NCBI RefSeq assembly: GCF_000364445.2
Contig: NZ_CP043538.1
Coordinates: 5,475,447 to 5,539,446 of the forward strand
Direction of reading: 5' to 3'
Length of the DNA stretch: 64,000 nucleotides
From: Methylobacterium mesophilicum SR1.6/6
GTDB taxonomy: Bacteria; Pseudomonadota; Alphaproteobacteria; Rhizobiales; Beijerinckiaceae
Made by a program: the position numbers and the translations under genes. The notes beneath the pieces were generated by a model. That model ran no database searches, was not told the DNA's origin, and was given only the letters and a program-made list of their open reading frames with translations. Shown here piece after piece: positions 9,861 to 63,823 of the stretch (the first letter of the stretch is position 1; each line of letters begins with the position of its first letter).

Positions 9861-12545
9861 TCAGCCGGAACTCGACTTCTTCGCCGCCGCCTTCTTGGCC
9901 GCGGGCTTCTTCGCTGTCGTCTTCTTCGCCGCCGGCTTGTCGCCGCCCGCGGCACGCGCCGAACTCTTCCGGACCGCGCCGCGCTTGGCCGGCTTGCCGC
10001 CACCGGAAGCGCGCTTGGCATTCACCAGGGCGATCGCCTCATCGAGGGTCAGCGCCTCGGCACTGAGGCTCTTCGGCAGCGTGGCGTTCACCTCGCCGTC
10101 CGTGACGTAGGGCCCGTACTTGCCGGCCTTGACCACGAGGTCGCGGCCGCTGGCCTCGTCCTTGCCGAGCGGCCGGCCCGGATCGGCGGCCGGACGGCCG
10201 CGGCCGCCGCCCTGCTCCTTGGCGACGATGAGGTCGATGGCGCGGTTGCCGCCGATCTCCAGCACGTCGTCGTCACGCCCGAGATTGGCGTAGGTCTTCC
10301 CGTGCTGCACGTAGGGCCCGAACCGGCCGAGATTGGCCAGGATCGGCTCGCCGGTCTCGGGGTGGCGCGCGACCTCGCGGGGGAGCGCCAGGAGCGCGAG
10401 CGCCTTGTTCAGATCCACGTCCGACGGGCTGAGCCCCTTCGGCAGCGACGAGCGCTTCGGCTTCTCCGCGCCCTTCTCGGTCGAGGCCTCGCCGAGCTGC
10501 AGGAACGGACCGAAGCGGCCGTCGCGGAGCGTCACGGGCAGGCCGGTCGCCGGATCGTCGCCCAGCACGCGCACGCCCGGCTGCCCGCCCTCGGCCGAGG
10601 AGCCGTCGCCCTCACCCTCGACGCCCGAGGCCGAGAGCTGGCGGGTGTACTTGCATTCCGGGTAGTTGGAGCAGCCGATGAAGGCGCCGAACTTCCCGAG
10701 CTTCAGCGAGAGCTGGCCGGAGCCGCAGGTCGGGCAGGTGCGCGGGTTCGAGCCGTCGCCCTTGTCGGGGAAGATGTGCGGCCCGAGGAGGCCGTTCAGC
10801 GCCTCCAGCACGTCGGCGACGCGCAGCTCCTTGGTCTCGCCGATCGCCGCCGAGAAGTCGCGCCAGAAGTCGCGCAAAACCGCCCGCCAGTCGATCTCGG
10901 CATTGGAGACGCGGTCGAGCTGCTCCTCGAGGCCGGCGGTGAAGTCGTACTCGACGTAGCGGCGGAAGAAGCTCTCGAGGAAGCCCGTGACGAGCCGCCC
11001 CTTGTCCTCCGGCTGCAGCCGCTTCTTTTCGAGCTTCACATATTCGCGGTCGCGCAGGGTCTGCAGCACCGCCGCGTAGGTCGAGGGCCGGCCGATGCCG
11101 AGTTCCTCCATGCGCTTCACGAGGCTCGCCTCGGAGTAGCGCGGCGGCGGCTCGGTGAAGTGCTGGGTCGAGCTGATCCGCTCGCGGGTGAGCGGGTCGC
11201 CGGCCTTCATGGGCGGCAGGCGACGGCTCTCCTCGTCCTCCTCGTCGTCCTTGCCCTCCTGGTAGAGCGCGAGGAAACCGTCGAACTTCACCACTTGGCC
11301 GGTGGCGCGCAGGTCGATCGTGCGCGGCCCGACCTTGGCGGTGACGTCGACGGTGGTGCGCTCCAGCTCGGCCGATTCCATCTGGCTCGCCATGGTGCGG
11401 GTCCAGATCAGCTCGTAGAGCCGGGCCTGCTCGGGCTCGAGGTGGCGGGCGACCATCCTGGGCAGGCGGCCCATGTCGGTGGGGCGCACCGCCTCGTGGG
11501 CCTCCTGGGCGTTCTTGGCCTTGACGCTGTACTTGCGCGGCACGTCCGGCACGTAGCGGTCGCCGAACTCCTTGCCGATCACCCGGCGGGCGTCCTGGAT
11601 CGCCTCAGGCGCCATGTCGACGCCGTCGGTCCGCATGTAGGTGATGATGCCGACCGTCTCGCCGCCGATGTCGACGCCCTCGTAGAGGCGCTGGGCGACC
11701 CGCATGGTCTGGGCCGGCGCCATCCCGAGCTTTCGCGATGCCTCCTGCTGGAGGGTCGAGGTCGTGAAGGGCGGCTGCGGGTGGCGCTTGGCGGGCTTCG
11801 CCTCGACGCTCGCCACCTGGAAGGTCGCGAGCTCCAAATCGCGCTTGAAGGCGGCGGCCTCGTCGCCGGTGCCGACGTCGAGGCGCTGGATGCGCTTGCC
11901 GTCGGCGCCCACGAGGCGCGCCTCGAAGGTCGCGCCGTCGGCGGTCGTCAGGGTGGCGATGAGCGTCCAGTACTCACGCGGCTTGAACCGCTCGATCTCC
12001 ATCTCGCGCTCGACGACGAGGCGGAGCGCCACCGACTGCACGCGCCCCGCCGAGCGGGCGCCGGGGAGCTTGCGCCACAGGACCGGCGAGAGGTTGAAGC
12101 CCACGAGGTAGTCGAGCGCCCGGCGCGCCAGGTAGGCGTCGACCAGCGCCTGGTCGATCTCCCGCGGCTTGCGCATCGCCTGCTCGACCGACGCCTTGGT
12201 GATGGCGTTGAAGGTCACGCGCTCGACCGGGATGCCCTTGAGCGCCTTGCGGGCGGTGAGTGCCTCCAGCACGTGCCAGGAGATCGCCTCGCCCTCGCGA
12301 TCCGGGTCGGTGGCGAGAATCAGCTTGTCGGCGCCCTTGACCGCCTTGGCGATCTCCGAGACCCGGCTCGCCCCGCGGTCGGCCAGCTCCCAGACCATGT
12401 GGAAGTCCTGCTCGGGATCCACCGAGCCGTCCTTGGGCGGCAGGTCGCGGATATGCCCGAAGGAGGCGATGACTTCATAGTCGCGACCGAGATACTTATT
12501 GATCGTCTTGGCTTTGGCCGGCGACTCGACGACGACGACTTTCAT
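9861..12545 (-). CDS. topA: DNA topoisomerase I
   Basis: An 894-residue type IA topoisomerase that relaxes negative supercoils. The N-terminal Toprim domain (MKVVVVESPAKAKTI, ATDPDREGEAISWH) is followed by the strand-passage domains with active-site Tyr303 in GIITYMRTDGVD. A single Cys4 zinc motif (CPTCG...GCSNYPECKY) comes next, then several Toprim C-terminal repeats containing KFGPYV/RFGPFLQ-like blocks. The last 40 residues are a Lys/Ala-rich tail with KKTTAKKPAAKKAAAKK, resembling histone H1 and probably binding DNA non-specifically. The ATG at 12545 fits the family N-terminus. In many alphaproteobacteria dprA lies upstream, but it is not here. Confidence 0.97.
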   Translation of the reverse strand: MKVVVVESPAKAKTINKYLGRDYEVIASFGHIRDLPPKDGSVDPEQDFHMVWELADRGASRVSEIAKAVKGADKLILATDPDREGEAISWHVLEALTARKALKGIPVERVTFNAITKASVEQAMRKPREIDQALVDAYLARRALDYLVGFNLSPVLWRKLPGARSAGRVQSVALRLVVEREMEIERFKPREYWTLIATLTTADGATFEARLVGADGKRIQRLDVGTGDEAAAFKRDLELATFQVASVEAKPAKRHPQPPFTTSTLQQEASRKLGMAPAQTMRVAQRLYEGVDIGGETVGIITYMRTDGVDMAPEAIQDARRVIGKEFGDRYVPDVPRKYSVKAKNAQEAHEAVRPTDMGRLPRMVARHLEPEQARLYELIWTRTMASQMESAELERTTVDVTAKVGPRTIDLRATGQVVKFDGFLALYQEGKDDEEDEESRRLPPMKAGDPLTRERISSTQHFTEPPPRYSEASLVKRMEELGIGRPSTYAAVLQTLRDREYVKLEKKRLQPEDKGRLVTGFLESFFRRYVEYDFTAGLEEQLDRVSNAEIDWRAVLRDFWRDFSAAIGETKELRVADVLEALNGLLGPHIFPDKGDGSNPRTCPTCGSGQLSLKLGKFGAFIGCSNYPECKYTRQLSASGVEGEGDGSSAEGGQPGVRVLGDDPATGLPVTLRDGRFGPFLQLGEASTEKGAEKPKRSSLPKGLSPSDVDLNKALALLALPREVARHPETGEPILANLGRFGPYVQHGKTYANLGRDDDVLEIGGNRAIDLIVAKEQGGGRGRPAADPGRPLGKDEASGRDLVVKAGKYGPYVTDGEVNATLPKSLSAEALTLDEAIALVNAKRASGGGKPAKRGAVRKSSARAAGGDKPAAKKTTAKKPAAKKAAAKKSSSG

Positions 12546-58702: not shown

Positions 58703-61036
58703 GTGATCGGATCCGCGGCCCCGTATCCGGCCTCGAGGCGCACGTCCCTCACTGCCGCCGCGCTCATCGCCACCGTCGGCGTCGCGCTGGCCGGCCCGGT
58801 CGGCCCGGACGTGCCTACGGCGACGCCGCCGGCCACGCAGCCGACACCGCCCGCGAGCGACGACGCCCTGTCCACCGCGCAGGTCCGGGGGGCGCAGGCC
58901 GAGAAAGCCGCCGACGCGGTCGCGGCCGACGCCCTGAAGCTTGATCCGGTCCATGCCTCCGGCGGTGACGACAAGGGTGAGGAACCCGCCCGCACGCTGC
59001 CGGCCGCGGCCTCGGCCTACGCCTCCGCGGATCCCGACGCCCCCGTGGCCTTCCCGCTGCCGGATGCCGCCGTCACCCCGGCGGCTCCGGTGCCGGAGGT
59101 GCCCGATCCGGCGCGCCCGACGATCTCCGGCGACACCGACCCGACGCTGTTGCGCGGCGCCATCGACCTTTATCGCAAGGGCCGGGTCGCCGACGGCGAC
59201 CGGATGCGCGACGGCTTCACCGATCCGGCCGCGAAGGCGCTGCTCGAATGGGTGGCGATCCGCGCGGGCGCCGGCATCGGCTTCGCCCGAACCGTCGCCT
59301 TCGCCCGGGCCAACCCGGACTGGCCGGCCGGCCCGCTGCTGCGTCGCCGGGCCGAGGAGGCGCTGCTCTCCGAGCGAAAATCCCCCGCGACGGTACGGGC
59401 GTTCTTCGCCACGGCGAAGCCCTCGAGCGCGCCGGGCAAGTTCGCCCTTGCCCTGGCGCTGCGCGCCGAGGGCTACGAGGCGGACGCCGCCGATATGGTC
59501 CGCGACCTCTGGCGCGGCGAGAACTTCGGGCGGAGCCTCGAAGCCAAGGTTCTCGACGCCTTCCCGGAGGTGCTCACCCGGGTCGATCACCGCTACCGAA
59601 TGGAGCGGGCGCTCCTGAAGGACGACTGGGAGAGCGCCGGCCGGGCCGCCGGCTACGCGGGGGGTGGCTATGCCAGCCTCGTACGCGCCCGGCGGGCCGT
59701 GGAGGACAAGTCTTCGGGCGCCGCCGCCGCTCTGGCCGCGGTGCCGCCGTCCCTGCGGGGGGACGCCTCCTACATCTTCTCCCGGGCGCAATATTTTCGC
59801 CGGGCCGACAAGCCCGAGGCGGCCGCCGCCGTGCTGGCCACGGCGCCAAGCAACCCGGACGTGCTGGTCGACGGCGACGAGTGGTGGATCGAGCGCCGGA
59901 TCGTGGCGCGCAAGCTCCTCGACCTCGGCGATGCGAAGACCGCCTACGCGGTGGCCAGCGCCCCGGCGGCGCGCACTCCGGAGAAGCGGATCGAGGCCGA
60001 GTTCCACGCCGGCTGGATCGCGCTCCGCTTCGTCAACGACCCGGCACGCGCCGCGCAGCACTTCGCGCAGGTCGTGGCGATTGCCGAGAGTCCGATCTCG
60101 GTGGCGCGGGCCGCCTACTGGCAGGGCCGCGCGGCCGAGGCTCTGAGCCAGACCGAGGAGGCGAAGCGCTTTTACGAGCGGGCAGCCCTCCAGCCGATCG
60201 CCTATTACGGGCAGGTGGCCCGCGCGCGGCTCGGCCAGACCAGCTTGCCCCTGCGGGCGCCCGCGGATCTCGAAGGGCCCGAGCGTCAGGCCTTCGACGG
60301 CCGGCTCTACATCCGCGCGCTGCGCCTGCTGGGCGAGGCGGGGATCAAGGAACTGGCCCTGCCGCTCTATATCGACGCCGCTCGGGAGCTCTCCGACCCC
60401 CGCGAGATCCAGGCGCTCGGCGACCTCGCCACCGATATGAAGGATGCCCGCGCCCTGGTGGCAATCGGCAAGCTGGCGGTTCAGCGGGGCCTGCCGCTGG
60501 ACGCCCACGCCTATCCGACGATCGGGATCCCCACCTACGAGACCTTCACGGCGGTGCCGCAGGTGGAGCGGGCCATGGTCTACGCCATCGCCCGGCAGGA
60601 GAGCCAGTTCGACCCGCGGGCGCAATCGGGCGTCGGCGCCAGGGGGCTGATGCAGATGATGCCGGCGACCGCCCAACGCACCGCCCGCCGGGTCTCGGCC
60701 GCGTTCGACGTCGACCGCCTGACCAGCGACCCCGCCTACTGCGCCAAGCTCGGCCAAGCCCATCTCGGCGAGCTGATGGAGGATTGGCGCGGCTCCTACG
60801 TGCTGGCCTTCGCGTCGTACAACGCAGGGGGCGGCAACGTGAAGAAGTGGATCGACGCCTACGGCGATCCGCGCAAGGGCGACGTCGACGTGATCGACTG
60901 GGTCGAGCGCATCCCCTTCACGGAGACGCGCAACTACGTGCAGCGGGTGATGGAGAACCTTCAAGTCTACCGCTCCCGGCTCGACAGCCGCAGCGCCCTT
61001 CTGATCGACGGCGACCTCCACCGCGGGGCGCGGTAG
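58703..61036 (+). CDS. Soluble lytic murein transglycosylase (Slt70-like)
   Basis: 777 residues. GTG start after AGGGGGGAA. A signal sequence near the N-terminus (LTAAALIATVGVALA), a Pro/Thr linker, an alpha-superhelical U/L domain (about 130-590), then the Slt catalytic domain with Glu in ARQESQFDPRAQSGVGARGLMQMMPATA and SYNAGGGNVKKW. It cleaves glycan strands in the periplasm to 1,6-anhydro products. It is divergent from dapA. Confidence 0.95.
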   Translation: MIGSAAPYPASRRTSLTAAALIATVGVALAGPVGPDVPTATPPATQPTPPASDDALSTAQVRGAQAEKAADAVAADALKLDPVHASGGDDKGEEPARTLPAAASAYASADPDAPVAFPLPDAAVTPAAPVPEVPDPARPTISGDTDPTLLRGAIDLYRKGRVADGDRMRDGFTDPAAKALLEWVAIRAGAGIGFARTVAFARANPDWPAGPLLRRRAEEALLSERKSPATVRAFFATAKPSSAPGKFALALALRAEGYEADAADMVRDLWRGENFGRSLEAKVLDAFPEVLTRVDHRYRMERALLKDDWESAGRAAGYAGGGYASLVRARRAVEDKSSGAAAALAAVPPSLRGDASYIFSRAQYFRRADKPEAAAAVLATAPSNPDVLVDGDEWWIERRIVARKLLDLGDAKTAYAVASAPAARTPEKRIEAEFHAGWIALRFVNDPARAAQHFAQVVAIAESPISVARAAYWQGRAAEALSQTEEAKRFYERAALQPIAYYGQVARARLGQTSLPLRAPADLEGPERQAFDGRLYIRALRLLGEAGIKELALPLYIDAARELSDPREIQALGDLATDMKDARALVAIGKLAVQRGLPLDAHAYPTIGIPTYETFTAVPQVERAMVYAIARQESQFDPRAQSGVGARGLMQMMPATAQRTARRVSAAFDVDRLTSDPAYCAKLGQAHLGELMEDWRGSYVLAFASYNAGGGNVKKWIDAYGDPRKGDVDVIDWVERIPFTETRNYVQRVMENLQVYRSRLDSRSALLIDGDLHRGAR

Positions 61037-61537
61037 GGCCCACGGACCATCGTCCTGGCCTGATGGCCTTCGAAGGTGATCGTCGTTACTGACGCAACAG
61101 GCTCGACGCGCTTGCAACACGCCCGGAGGAGCCGGGGCGGCTGTACCCCGGGCGGGACGACGCCGGATGTCGCCCTTTCGGGAGACCGCGACCGGTTCGA
61201 ACAGGCCACGCAGCGTCTGGAACACCGAGCGCCGCTATCCCCCGGCCTACGGCGAAAGGCGCGTGACGCACGCCGCATTGAGCCGGCGGACGGCCATCTG
61301 TGCCTGGACCGTACACCGGTAATCCCACTCAGCCAGATCGACAGTGATCGACACGCGATCCGGCTGAAATCTTATAGCCCGTACTTAATATTAACTCGCA
61401 TCGCCGACGATTGTCCGCTTGACAACTATCTGTCGGTCAGATTGAAACACCATCTATTATCATGGCACATAAGCCATCGGGTGCGATCCACCCATAACGC
61501 TTGCGGCTTCAAGAATCTCGAACGGAAGGCTGGGGCA
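61037..61537. other. AT-rich promoter region before the exosortase-like cassette
   Basis: 501 bp with no gene. From about 61340 to 61500 it is clearly less GC-rich (for example CTTAATATTAACTCG), with TTGACA at 61419-61424. No good -10 at the right distance was found. It separates slt from the cassette. Confidence 0.45.
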
Positions 61538-62116
61538 GTGGGCAATCTCAGATCTGCGCCCGTATTGCTCGGGGTGACGTTGGCGATGGCCAATGTCGTT
61601 CCGGCCCGGCCGCAAAGTATCTCCTTCCGTGCAGATACGGGATTTTTTCCGGTCCATTCCGGTATTGTCGAAGGAGCGCCACCACGGCTCTCCTTCGTCC
61701 CATCCGTCTCTGGGCCCCCTACAGTCACTGACGCCTATTCGGGCGCTCACCCGTTTCGCATCAACGTTGCGACCACGGCGGCTCAGACCGTCCTCACTGG
61801 ATTGACGTTCAGGCGGGGGAACGGCGGTGCCGATACCTCCAGACCGTCCGCAACTCTGATGGACGCTGCCTCCAGCCAAGCAAGCCTCAACCTGAGCGCC
61901 GGCTCATACGCGGTGACCAGCAGCGTGGCGGCGACTTCCTACGGCGGTGATGGCGCTGTCGCCGAATTGGTCTCGTCGATCACCGCGTCCAGCAGTAGCG
62001 GTTTGGGCGGCCCCCACGCGCTCGCGGTCAACGCGCTCCTCGGCTTCCCCATGCCCATGGGCACCTCGGCGTTCCTGCTCTGCAGGCACGTCGGCCGCCC
62101 GGTCGCTGTCGCCTGA
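61538..62116 (+). CDS. Secreted Ser/Thr/Ala-rich protein, first gene of the exosortase-like cassette
   Basis: 192 residues from the GTG at 61538 (GGAAGG about ten bases before). A signal region (MGNLRSAPVLLGVTLAMANVVPA) is followed by polar sequence rich in Ser, Thr, Ala and Gly (SLNLSAGSYAVTSSVAATSYGG), one cysteine, and a C-terminal hydrophobic stretch NALLGFPMPMGTSAFLLC before RHVGRPVAVA. A sorting enzyme's target often has a motif, a hydrophobic helix and basic residues at the end; this end is similar in layout but shows no PEP-CTERM. The next gene starts ten bases later. No family is recognised. Confidence 0.62.
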   Translation: MGNLRSAPVLLGVTLAMANVVPARPQSISFRADTGFFPVHSGIVEGAPPRLSFVPSVSGPPTVTDAYSGAHPFRINVATTAAQTVLTGLTFRRGNGGADTSRPSATLMDAASSQASLNLSAGSYAVTSSVAATSYGGDGAVAELVSSITASSSSGLGGPHALAVNALLGFPMPMGTSAFLLCRHVGRPVAVA

Positions 62117-62125
62117 GGTCTCGCC

Positions 62126-63016
62126 ATGGCCCGCTCCGTCGCGCGGCGCGGGAGAGGACTGCGCGCCACGATCGCGCTGCTCATCCCGCGCAACCTACCC
62201 ATTCACGCCGCCAGCTGGATCCTGCTGGTTTTCTCCTGCGGCACGGCGATCTCCGCCGCGCTACAGCGGATGTTGCTGGAACCCGATCCCGGCGCCCAGC
62301 GGCTGATCGAGCTCGACCTCGGTGAGCTGTTCGCCACCGCCGCCGTAATCGCGCTCATCCTCACCGCGCCGCGCTCGAGACCGGCCCTGACACCGGTCGA
62401 TCTCGCCATCCTGGCGGTGTCCGCCCTGGCCTGGACACTCCCCGAGGCGCATGCGGTCTACGCCGGCATGACGCTGGCCGCGGCATGGCTCATCACGCAG
62501 CGGTCCCGCGACCGCCTGATGACCGATGTCGCCCAGATCTGGCTGGCCCTGTCCCTCTGCGAGTTGTGGAGCAAACTCGCCTTCAAGCTATTTTACCACG
62601 CCATCGAGCCGTTCGAGGTCGCCGTCATGGCCTGGATCGGGCGTCTGGCCTTTCCCAACCTGCACGCGACGGGCGTGTACCTCAGCACCCGTCCTGACTG
62701 GACGATCGTCATGCTGGAGGGCTGCTCGGCCTTCCACAACCTGTCGCTGGCCGCCCTGATCTGGCTGTGCGTGCTCAAGATCGCCGGACGACGGGCGGAT
62801 CCGGGCGCGTTCGGAGCCCTCGCGGTGAGTGCCGTCCTGGTCGTAGCGATCAATATTGCCCGGATCCTGGCCATGCTGCCGTCGCCCGTGGCCTATCACT
62901 ATTGGCACGATGGGACCGGTTCGGTCCTCGTCGCACTCGCGTCGGCGGCCGCCTCGGTCCTGCCGATCGTCCTGCAGCTCGAGAGAACGCCGTGTCCAGC
63001 CACTCCGCGCGCCTGA
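62126..63016 (+). CDS. Exosortase/archaeosortase-like membrane transpeptidase
   Basis: 296 residues with about eight hydrophobic helices. The three catalytic signatures of exosortases are in order: Cys200 in EGCSAFHNLSLAAL, Arg246 in INIARILAM, and His261 in YWHDGTGSV, each at a membrane boundary. Exosortases recognise C-terminal PEP-CTERM-like tripartite signals and cut or transfer the protein. Overall similarity to named types could not be judged here. No PEP-CTERM protein lies within the window. It overlaps the following gene by 25 bases. Confidence 0.8.
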   Translation: MARSVARRGRGLRATIALLIPRNLPIHAASWILLVFSCGTAISAALQRMLLEPDPGAQRLIELDLGELFATAAVIALILTAPRSRPALTPVDLAILAVSALAWTLPEAHAVYAGMTLAAAWLITQRSRDRLMTDVAQIWLALSLCELWSKLAFKLFYHAIEPFEVAVMAWIGRLAFPNLHATGVYLSTRPDWTIVMLEGCSAFHNLSLAALIWLCVLKIAGRRADPGAFGALAVSAVLVVAINIARILAMLPSPVAYHYWHDGTGSVLVALASAAASVLPIVLQLERTPCPATPRA

Positions 63017-63534
63017 GGACAGCGGATCGCGCGACTTTGATGGTCCTGTGCCTGCTGCTCCTCGCGTCGGTCTCGGCCCGGATCGTCGCGTACCGATCCG
63101 CAGCCTCGGACTCCGATGCCAACACCGTTACGATCGCGCCGGGTGAACGGTTGGCCCTGCCACTCCACCACGCCGGTCGCCGTCTGCTCCGGATCGCCGC
63201 GTGCCCGACACCCGTGCTGGTCGATTTCGTCGAGCCATCGCCGCACGGCAGAGACACGTCCCTGATGGCCTCGCCCGATCCGAGCGACCGCACCACCTTC
63301 GTCTATCGCGGCTGGACGCTGGCCGGGCCTCGCGCCGTGATGAAGCTGAGCATGCTGTACTTCATGTACCGGGCGGGCGCCGTCCTCGGCGTCAGCGGGC
63401 CTTTCGCCGGGGACGAGCGGGCCGTGAAGCTCGTCGTTCCAGGGACGTGCGACGCAGCGCCGGGCGCAATCCTGTCCGCCCTGTACGACGATCTGCAGCC
63501 CTTGCTCCAAGGTCGCGGCACCGGTGCGCCGTGA
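62992..63534 (+). CDS. Membrane-anchored partner of the exosortase-like protein
   Basis: 180 residues from the GTG at 62992 (GAGAGA about ten bases before), overlapping the exosortase-like gene by 25 bases. One N-terminal helix (RATLMVLCLLLLASVSARIVAY) anchors about 150 extracytoplasmic residues with two cysteines (RIAACPTP, PGTCDAAP). Position and topology resemble the EpsI/DUF3485-type accessory proteins encoded beside other exosortases, but sequence similarity was not visible by eye. Confidence 0.7.
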   Translation: MSSHSARLRTADRATLMVLCLLLLASVSARIVAYRSAASDSDANTVTIAPGERLALPLHHAGRRLLRIAACPTPVLVDFVEPSPHGRDTSLMASPDPSDRTTFVYRGWTLAGPRAVMKLSMLYFMYRAGAVLGVSGPFAGDERAVKLVVPGTCDAAPGAILSALYDDLQPLLQGRGTGAP

Positions 63535-63823
63535 TCGGTCTCCGACAAAGGGTGGCGTGTCGGGGGTGGCGGCCGGATCGGCCAACGCTCCTGCTGCCAT
63601 GACGGCTGCGGGCCCGCCGGGACAGCCGTTCCTCGGCTTGCACCCGCAGGAGCGACCGCAGGCACCTTCACACGGGCGACGCGCGCGGAAAAATCCCGGC
63701 CGGACGTAACCGCCGCCCGTCGACGGCGAAGCTTCGGGTTGTGCGCGTTGTGTCGGCCTCACTAGAAGGTGGGTTGATCGACCTCGTCCCGTTCATGGGA
63801 CTGGCGCAGCCGAGAGGATCCAC

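Follow-up and report, generated by a model that had tools for sequence, protein, structure and literature searches.

The locus and its flanks

The window, a stretch of 64,000 nucleotides from the single-contig, 6.56 Mb genome of Methylobacterium mesophilicum SR1.6/6, carries three closely packed genes, which we call A, X and C (Table 1). They had been pointed out in an earlier note, made from the letters alone, as a secreted protein, an exosortase-like enzyme and an anchored partner. The three open frames were found where that note had placed them, all on the forward strand, and the 25-base overlap between X and C was also correct; the gap between A and X measures 9 bases (62117-62125), not ten. 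The G+C content of the 400 bases 5' of A is 0.60, compared with 0.70 for the whole window. Seven of eight loci from near relatives are from Methylobacterium and one is from Roseiarcus.

Table 1. Features of the cassette and its flanks, and proteins with the sorting tail encoded elsewhere in the genome
Feature	Position	Strand	Remarks
Soluble lytic transglycosylase gene	58703-61036		Upstream flank
Apparently inserted cassette	61047..63682	.	About 2.6 kb; limits are where homology to relatives fades
Lower-G+C leader preceding A	61047..61537	+	G+C comparison
A, secreted-type protein	61538-62116	+	192 aa, GTG start, open frame; orthologous to the tail protein next to X in M. mesophilicum-type cassettes; degenerate sorting signal
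Remnant of the C-terminal sorting signal of A	62000..62113	+	Pro-Glu and basic cluster gone
X, predicted exosortase-family membrane protein	62126-63016	+	296 aa, ATG start; TIGR04178 match, alignment (n=23), model
Cys200 codon of X, predicted nucleophile	62723..62725	+	Invariant, 23/23
Arg246 codon of X	62861..62863	+	Invariant, 23/23
His261 codon of X	62906..62908	+	Invariant, 23/23
C, single-pass partner with outer domain	62992-63534	+	180 aa, GTG start; homologue adjoins X in relatives
Cys71 codon of C	63202..63204	+	Invariant, 21/21
Cys153 codon of C	63448..63450	+	Invariant, 21/21
Catalase-family gene	from 63824		Downstream flank
S1, tail protein	C1:2288457-2288705	-	82 aa
S2, tail protein in prophage	C1:2308473-2309081	-	202 aa
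S3, tail protein	locus L067		133 aa
S4, FecR-domain tail protein	L068:7098-8255	+	PAVN for PEVN; PF04773, E 2.6e-12

The sequences that match the two flanks are about 2790 bp apart here and about 110-355 bp apart in at least 16 relatives. Eight of the 16 relatives with the empty site were aligned with the window, and in all eight the homology ends at 61036-61046, where the transglycosylase gene ends, and starts again at 63683-63804. It looks as if the cassette was inserted at this site, or else lost from the relatives, and gain is favoured because many relatives have the empty site. In nine of these 16 relatives X is located elsewhere in the genome. We noticed no integrase or transposase within the cassette.

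Downstream of the cassette the catalase-family gene is followed by a homologue of APS kinase (L055:5146-5835, minus strand, about 2.2 kb downstream of X) and by a frame that looks by eye like a sulfotransferase and has no PDB match. L042 has an APS-kinase look-alike of its own, recognised by eye, some 3.5 kb downstream of X (10209-10889, plus strand, in the oriented copy), and a glycosyltransferase is encoded near X in L030. In G065 (C2:2134187-2136471) the match to the lytic transglycosylase comes in two overlapping pieces, possibly as a result of a frameshift or an assembly error.

X as a probable exosortase

X is a polytopic protein as judged from six hydrophobic 19-mers (Kyte-Doolittle) and from eight helices of at least 15 residues in a structural model of mean pLDDT 81. 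The window copy matches the exosortase/archaeosortase profile TIGR04178 of NCBIfam with an E-value of 0.0034 and 17.7 bits, below the curated cut-off of 23 bits. We aligned 23 X proteins, i.e. the window copy and those of 22 loci (L029-L050) from 19 other genomes, with two copies each in G027, G040 and G082; not included were a fragment in G087 (C132) and the distant X proteins of G060 and G077. Twenty of the 23 match TIGR04178 at E<=0.1, the best of them with 2.6e-5, and Cys200, Arg246 and His261 are among the columns that are invariant in the whole alignment. The weak match of the window copy is considered to be above chance because its relatives match the same profile and these residues do not vary. 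The Cys/Arg/His signature on which the original proposal rested has thus withstood comparison with homologues, and the profile search recommended along with it gave a match, albeit one under the cut-off.

The remark that the sequence is unlike the better-known types also proved right. XrtK, cyanoexosortase CrtA, XrtP, XrtR and XrtX match the X proteins weakly across the catalytic region, and less well than TIGR04178 does (best E-value for any type among the 23 proteins, 0.00022), but the window copy falls far short of the cut-off of every named type: it scores 14.7 bits against a cut-off of 55 for XrtK, 14.1 against 150 for CrtA and 14.2 against 200 for XrtP. Searching Pfam with X gave a single unrelated weak match (E 0.08). 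No related PDB chain was found by sequence at E<=1, and none by fold at E<=0.001 with the model of X.

The phylogenetic tree divides the X proteins into two fully supported groups, one of 10 rows and one of 13. The window copy belongs to the first group, where it is 67-72% identical to eight of its nine group mates and 61% identical to the protein of L037. X is present (E<=0.001) in 22 of the 111 genomes of the genus; G060 and G077 are counted there with distant exosortases alone, which are 28-29% identical to X. Across 297 genomes of the order the X profile found seven, its own included, the remainder being distant. A match in G084 (C104, 26% identity) was dropped after a second look, which gave nothing. 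X had no match in the 'plasmids' set and none that was confirmed in viral_contigs. We conclude that X is, by its predicted features, an exosortase type without a name in NCBIfam release 20, which occurs in part of the genus Methylobacterium. Neither this enzyme nor its tail was found described in the part of the literature on exosortases, PEP-CTERM, Methylobacterium and prophages that was covered.

A predicted sorting signal that accompanies X

In all of the 22 other full X loci examined the frame that lies just 5' of the X start, or overlaps it, ends in SGGAPxPE[VI]NAxLGLxLAGGTVAFLRRRR or a close variant, with one PEID and one PEAN among them. G-x-A-P-x-P-E is invariant in 18 representative tails. 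The arrangement of a signal peptide and, after the motif, a helix and a basic cluster was recognised by hydropathy in the adjacent proteins of L029, L030 and L038 and in two proteins encoded away from X, S1 and S2; the A protein of the window does not fit it. The earlier note had stated that there is no PEP-CTERM motif. This is right for the window copy, but the Pro-Glu form is present upstream of X in 22 of 22 other loci. Pro-Glu-Pro itself is absent from these tails, the residue after PE being V, I or A and the next one N or D. When nine full-length proteins, the window's A included, were compared with the PEP_CTERM model TIGR02595 (cut-off 16 bits), five scored 12.7-13.9 bits and four gave no match; a 38-residue tail alone scored 16.6 bits. 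Thus the tail is PEP-CTERM-like, yet neither by its motif nor by the cut-off is it PEP-CTERM. From the PEP-CTERM literature a sigma-54-type site would be expected upstream of the substrates; one simple pattern for it (TGGC-N7/8-TTGC) was absent from 25 of 25 upstream regions.

The tail is found on unlike proteins. After removal of the tails from 26 proteins, 22 of them adjacent to X and four encoded in trans, the bodies fell in eight groups (blastp, E<=1e-4; links between short single proteins may be missed at this threshold): one group of 12, one of seven to which the window's A also belongs (L029-L035), a pair of FecR proteins (L040 and S4, PF04773) and five singles.

A 33-column tail profile, used on the 111 genomes, detected 35 tails at E<=1e-9. 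They are spread over 21 genomes, each of which has X, and the next best match had an E-value of 0.003. Twenty-two of these tails adjoin X and 13 are elsewhere. Among the candidates scored, which in many genomes were 71 of up to 144 found at first look, tails therefore occur in 21 of the 22 X-bearing and in none of the 89 other Methylobacterium genomes, G060 being the sole X-bearing genome without one. Fisher's test gives 9e-22 for this distribution (21/1/0/89), a value to be read with the relatedness of the species in mind, as the counts are not independent. It must be noted that the adjacent tails, from which the profile was made, cannot but match it; this does not apply to the trans tails or to the absences. 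When S2, a trans protein from outside the profile, was the only query and all candidates were scored in every genome listed, the same 21 of 111 genomes were returned and no other.

The A protein of the window

The body of A is orthologous to the A protein of M. mesophilicum-type loci, with 34% identity to that of L003 over 171 aa (E 5e-11), and it can be aligned with its relatives from end to end; A has no match at E<=1 in Pfam or NCBIfam. Its tail, GLGGPHALAVNALLGFPMPMGTSAFLLCRHVGR, contains neither Pro-Glu nor a basic run, and its best stretch scores 5.2 bits on the tail profile, compared with 70.8 and 71.4 bits for two relatives. The N-terminal hydrophobic 14-mer of A reaches a hydropathy of 1.96, the end of the signal peptide reads ARP-Q as against ARA-Q in two relatives, and there is no 19-residue stretch with a hydropathy of at least 1.6. 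A had been described as ending in a hydrophobic stretch and basic residues, which is only weakly true, because its best C-terminal 14-mer has a value of 1.46 and the 8 residues after it include no K/R, while in seven tail proteins compared with it the corresponding 14-mers have 1.95-2.45 and are followed by 4-6 K/R. Aligning the C-termini of homologues for an invariant motif had been proposed as a check; the relatives do share a motif of the SGGAPxPE[VI]NA type, and the window's A has lost it. The codons of A and its relatives, placed side by side, reveal no recognisable simple frameshift. We conclude that the predicted sorting signal of A is lost or degenerate in this genome.

Between the window and L029 the dN/dS ratios (NG86) are 0.54 for A, 0.27 for X and 0.62 for C, with synonymous sites near saturation. 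The faster divergence of A than of X is a weak point because of this near-saturation and because of the value for C.

The partner protein C

C has a match in 20 of the 111 genomes, all of them X-bearing; the X-bearing genomes without it are G060 and G077, those with distant exosortases. The neighbours of X, a tail protein on one side and C on the other, are thus conserved along with it. In 19 of the 23 loci C has a candidate start that gives an overlap of exactly 25 bases with X, other overlaps are seen in L039, L040 and L050, and in L037 no C frame was found, the match there including a stop. Cys71 and Cys153 do not vary among the aligned C proteins. None of these 21 proteins matches any NCBIfam model at E<=1, EpsI (TIGR02914) included, and Pfam offered no model of note (best E 0.044 in one member, nothing at E<=1 for the window copy). 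The model of C (mean pLDDT 83) shows a single helix, 31 residues long, at the N-terminus, and an outer domain of alpha/beta type. Pieces of X and/or C outside any full cassette are present in G087 (C132, L052) and G096 (C67, L072), and they may be read as signs of repeated loss. The C of G084 looks broken.

Eleven distant exosortases of the same order or genus and of Roseiarcus (L009, L051, L054 and L057-L064), remote from the X profile (E 1e-32 to 2.6e-9), resemble X in that the next gene downstream encodes a small protein with a single membrane pass and two invariant cysteines; these partner frames were chosen by eye, which favours likeness. The C profile found none of the 11 with HMMER at E<=0.1. 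Profile-profile comparison aligned C with them over 135 columns, both cysteines included, with a probability of 79 and an E-value of 1.6e-5. It is likely that C and the two-cysteine partners of the distant exosortases form one family.

Tail proteins encoded elsewhere, one of them in a prophage

The chromosome encodes three trans tails with intact PE[VL]NA and a fourth, in S4, with the PAVN variant (Table 1). The cassette had been thought to be a dedicated system of one enzyme and one substrate; this did not hold up, since the adjacent A has lost its signal and four tail proteins are encoded elsewhere in the same genome. The N-terminal hydrophobicity of S3 and S4 is weak (1.47 and 0.65). S4 has two tail-like segments, an internal one, SGSAPTLEANANLLEALLAAIP, and the terminal one with PAVN.

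S2 lies within a prophage, which is recognisable by matches to integrase, terminase, portal and head-protein/protease genes. In this region (L065 and L066, C1 about 2288000-2313000) there is a perfect 51-base att repeat; one copy coincides with the 3' end of tRNA-Gln, at L065:9815-9865, the other is at L066:12374-12424. S2 is situated towards the right end of the prophage. S1 is about 1 kb outside the repeat on the tRNA side, close to segments that share 87% identity with others at the far end of the prophage; it probably belongs to an older phage remnant at the same tRNA-Gln site. S1 and S2 are both present, identical letter for letter, in the IMG/VR contig IMGVR_UViG_2531839201_000001. The tail DNA pattern hit four stretches in viral_contigs, S1 and S2 being on one contig; the other two stretches (L080 and L081) encode no tail protein and were rejected. 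S2 had no match in the set 'phages'.

Remnants of X or C, which would suggest that the trans substrates derive from decayed cassettes, were sought beside these substrates at 13 loci. L072 in G096 has a clear remnant of C (E 4e-14), L073 has a weak hit (E 0.024) and the other 11 have none.

Discussion

We think it probable (about 0.8) that X is an exosortase, without a name in NCBIfam, that has a signal of its own and a two-cysteine partner, C, and that it acts in trans, the local substrate having decayed. Its substrates would cross the inner membrane by means of N-terminal signal peptides and stay anchored by the C-terminal helix. X would cut them at or just after Pro-Glu through a thioester at Cys200, with the assistance of Arg246 and His261, and pass the cut protein on for release or surface attachment. 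C, probably translated together with X, may hold, position or receive the substrate. Even though A has lost its signal here, X still has the residues that are invariant in the family, and it may be retained for the substrates encoded elsewhere, i.e. the three PE[VL]NA proteins and the FecR protein with PAVN.

If X were dedicated to A, and the divergent tail of A were a functional, changed signal that co-evolved with the enzyme, one could understand why the frame of A is still open over 192 codons, why its N-terminus is hydrophobic (1.96) and its C-terminus weakly so, and why gene order and spacing are retained. We consider this unlikely: A lacks the Pro-Glu kept in 22 of 22 other loci and also the basic cluster, X keeps the family-invariant residues, three proteins with the Pro-Glu signal are encoded elsewhere in the genome, and, as a weak argument given near-saturation and the 0.62 of C, the dN/dS of A is twice that of X. 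It is also possible that the whole cassette is decaying and that X and C are non-functional relics. The lost signal of A would agree with such decay, as would the X/C fragments in G087 and G096 and the broken-looking C of G084, but X and C of the window are of full length with their invariant residues, the dN/dS of X is about 0.27 and the four tail proteins persist, so that we regard this, too, as quite improbable. It is very unlikely that X acts in polysaccharide export, as a membrane protein resembling a flippase or polymerase, instead of being a protease or transpeptidase. A proposal of that kind had been made earlier for EpsH, according to Haft et al. 2006 (PMC1569441), and a glycosyltransferase near X in L030 and the APS-kinase homologue downstream of the window's X could be taken to point the same way; the link of X to a C-terminal tail on eight body groups and the conserved Cys, Arg and His argue against it.

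It is instructive to compare the trans-acting exosortase proposed here with the PEP-CTERM/EpsH system, as presented in PMC1569441. It was proposed there that PEP-CTERM is cut while the protein is transiently bound to the Cys of EpsH, a reading that would suit X and its tail as well, and EpsI is encoded directly downstream of EpsH in Methylobacillus 12S, or is fused to it. Both systems have a polytopic enzyme in which Cys, Arg and His are conserved, substrates of different bodies whose C-termini combine a motif, a helix and a basic cluster, co-occurrence of tail and enzyme, and a partner gene directly downstream (EpsI there, C here). They differ in the motif, which is GGAPxPE[VI]NA for X and Pro-Glu-Pro there, in the number of substrates, with 1 to 4 strong tails per tail-bearing X genome as opposed to a median of eight, in that the single pattern used detected no sigma-54-like site at the X substrates, in that C has no match to EpsI, and in that we noticed no large exopolysaccharide locus with X. 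In other bacteria PEP-CTERM proteins have been connected with floc formation and with holding exopolysaccharide to the cell (PMC9850573 and PMC12188702).

A further proposal, which we put forward tentatively and at a little less than even chance, is that the cassette moves between sites, outlives its local substrate and serves scattered tagged proteins, among them S2 from a temperate phage. Of all our results, a substrate carried by a phage was the one we expected least. If the proposal is true, lysogeny would place a protein chosen by the phage on the cell surface by way of the sorting enzyme of the host, because S2 of the prophage bears the host-specific sorting tail.

The X system offers a small, testable exosortase with one enzyme, one partner and few short substrates, one of them of just 82 residues. 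It comes with an exact candidate recognition motif and, in A, with a natural loss-of-signal variant that can serve as a control. A compact pair of this kind should be useful as material because no related PDB chain was found by sequence or by fold at the thresholds given above. It also draws attention to phage-borne substrates and to the two-cysteine partner family beside the exosortases of the order. Some of these distant exosortases have upstream tails of other kinds, AAPAPGMDLGVAG in L009 and GAPGPxAGxGLP in L051 and L062; none of the three reaches the cut-off of any NCBIfam sorting model. In both L051 and L062 the protein that precedes the enzyme ends in VGAPGPxAGxGLP, a hydrophobic stretch and RRHR.
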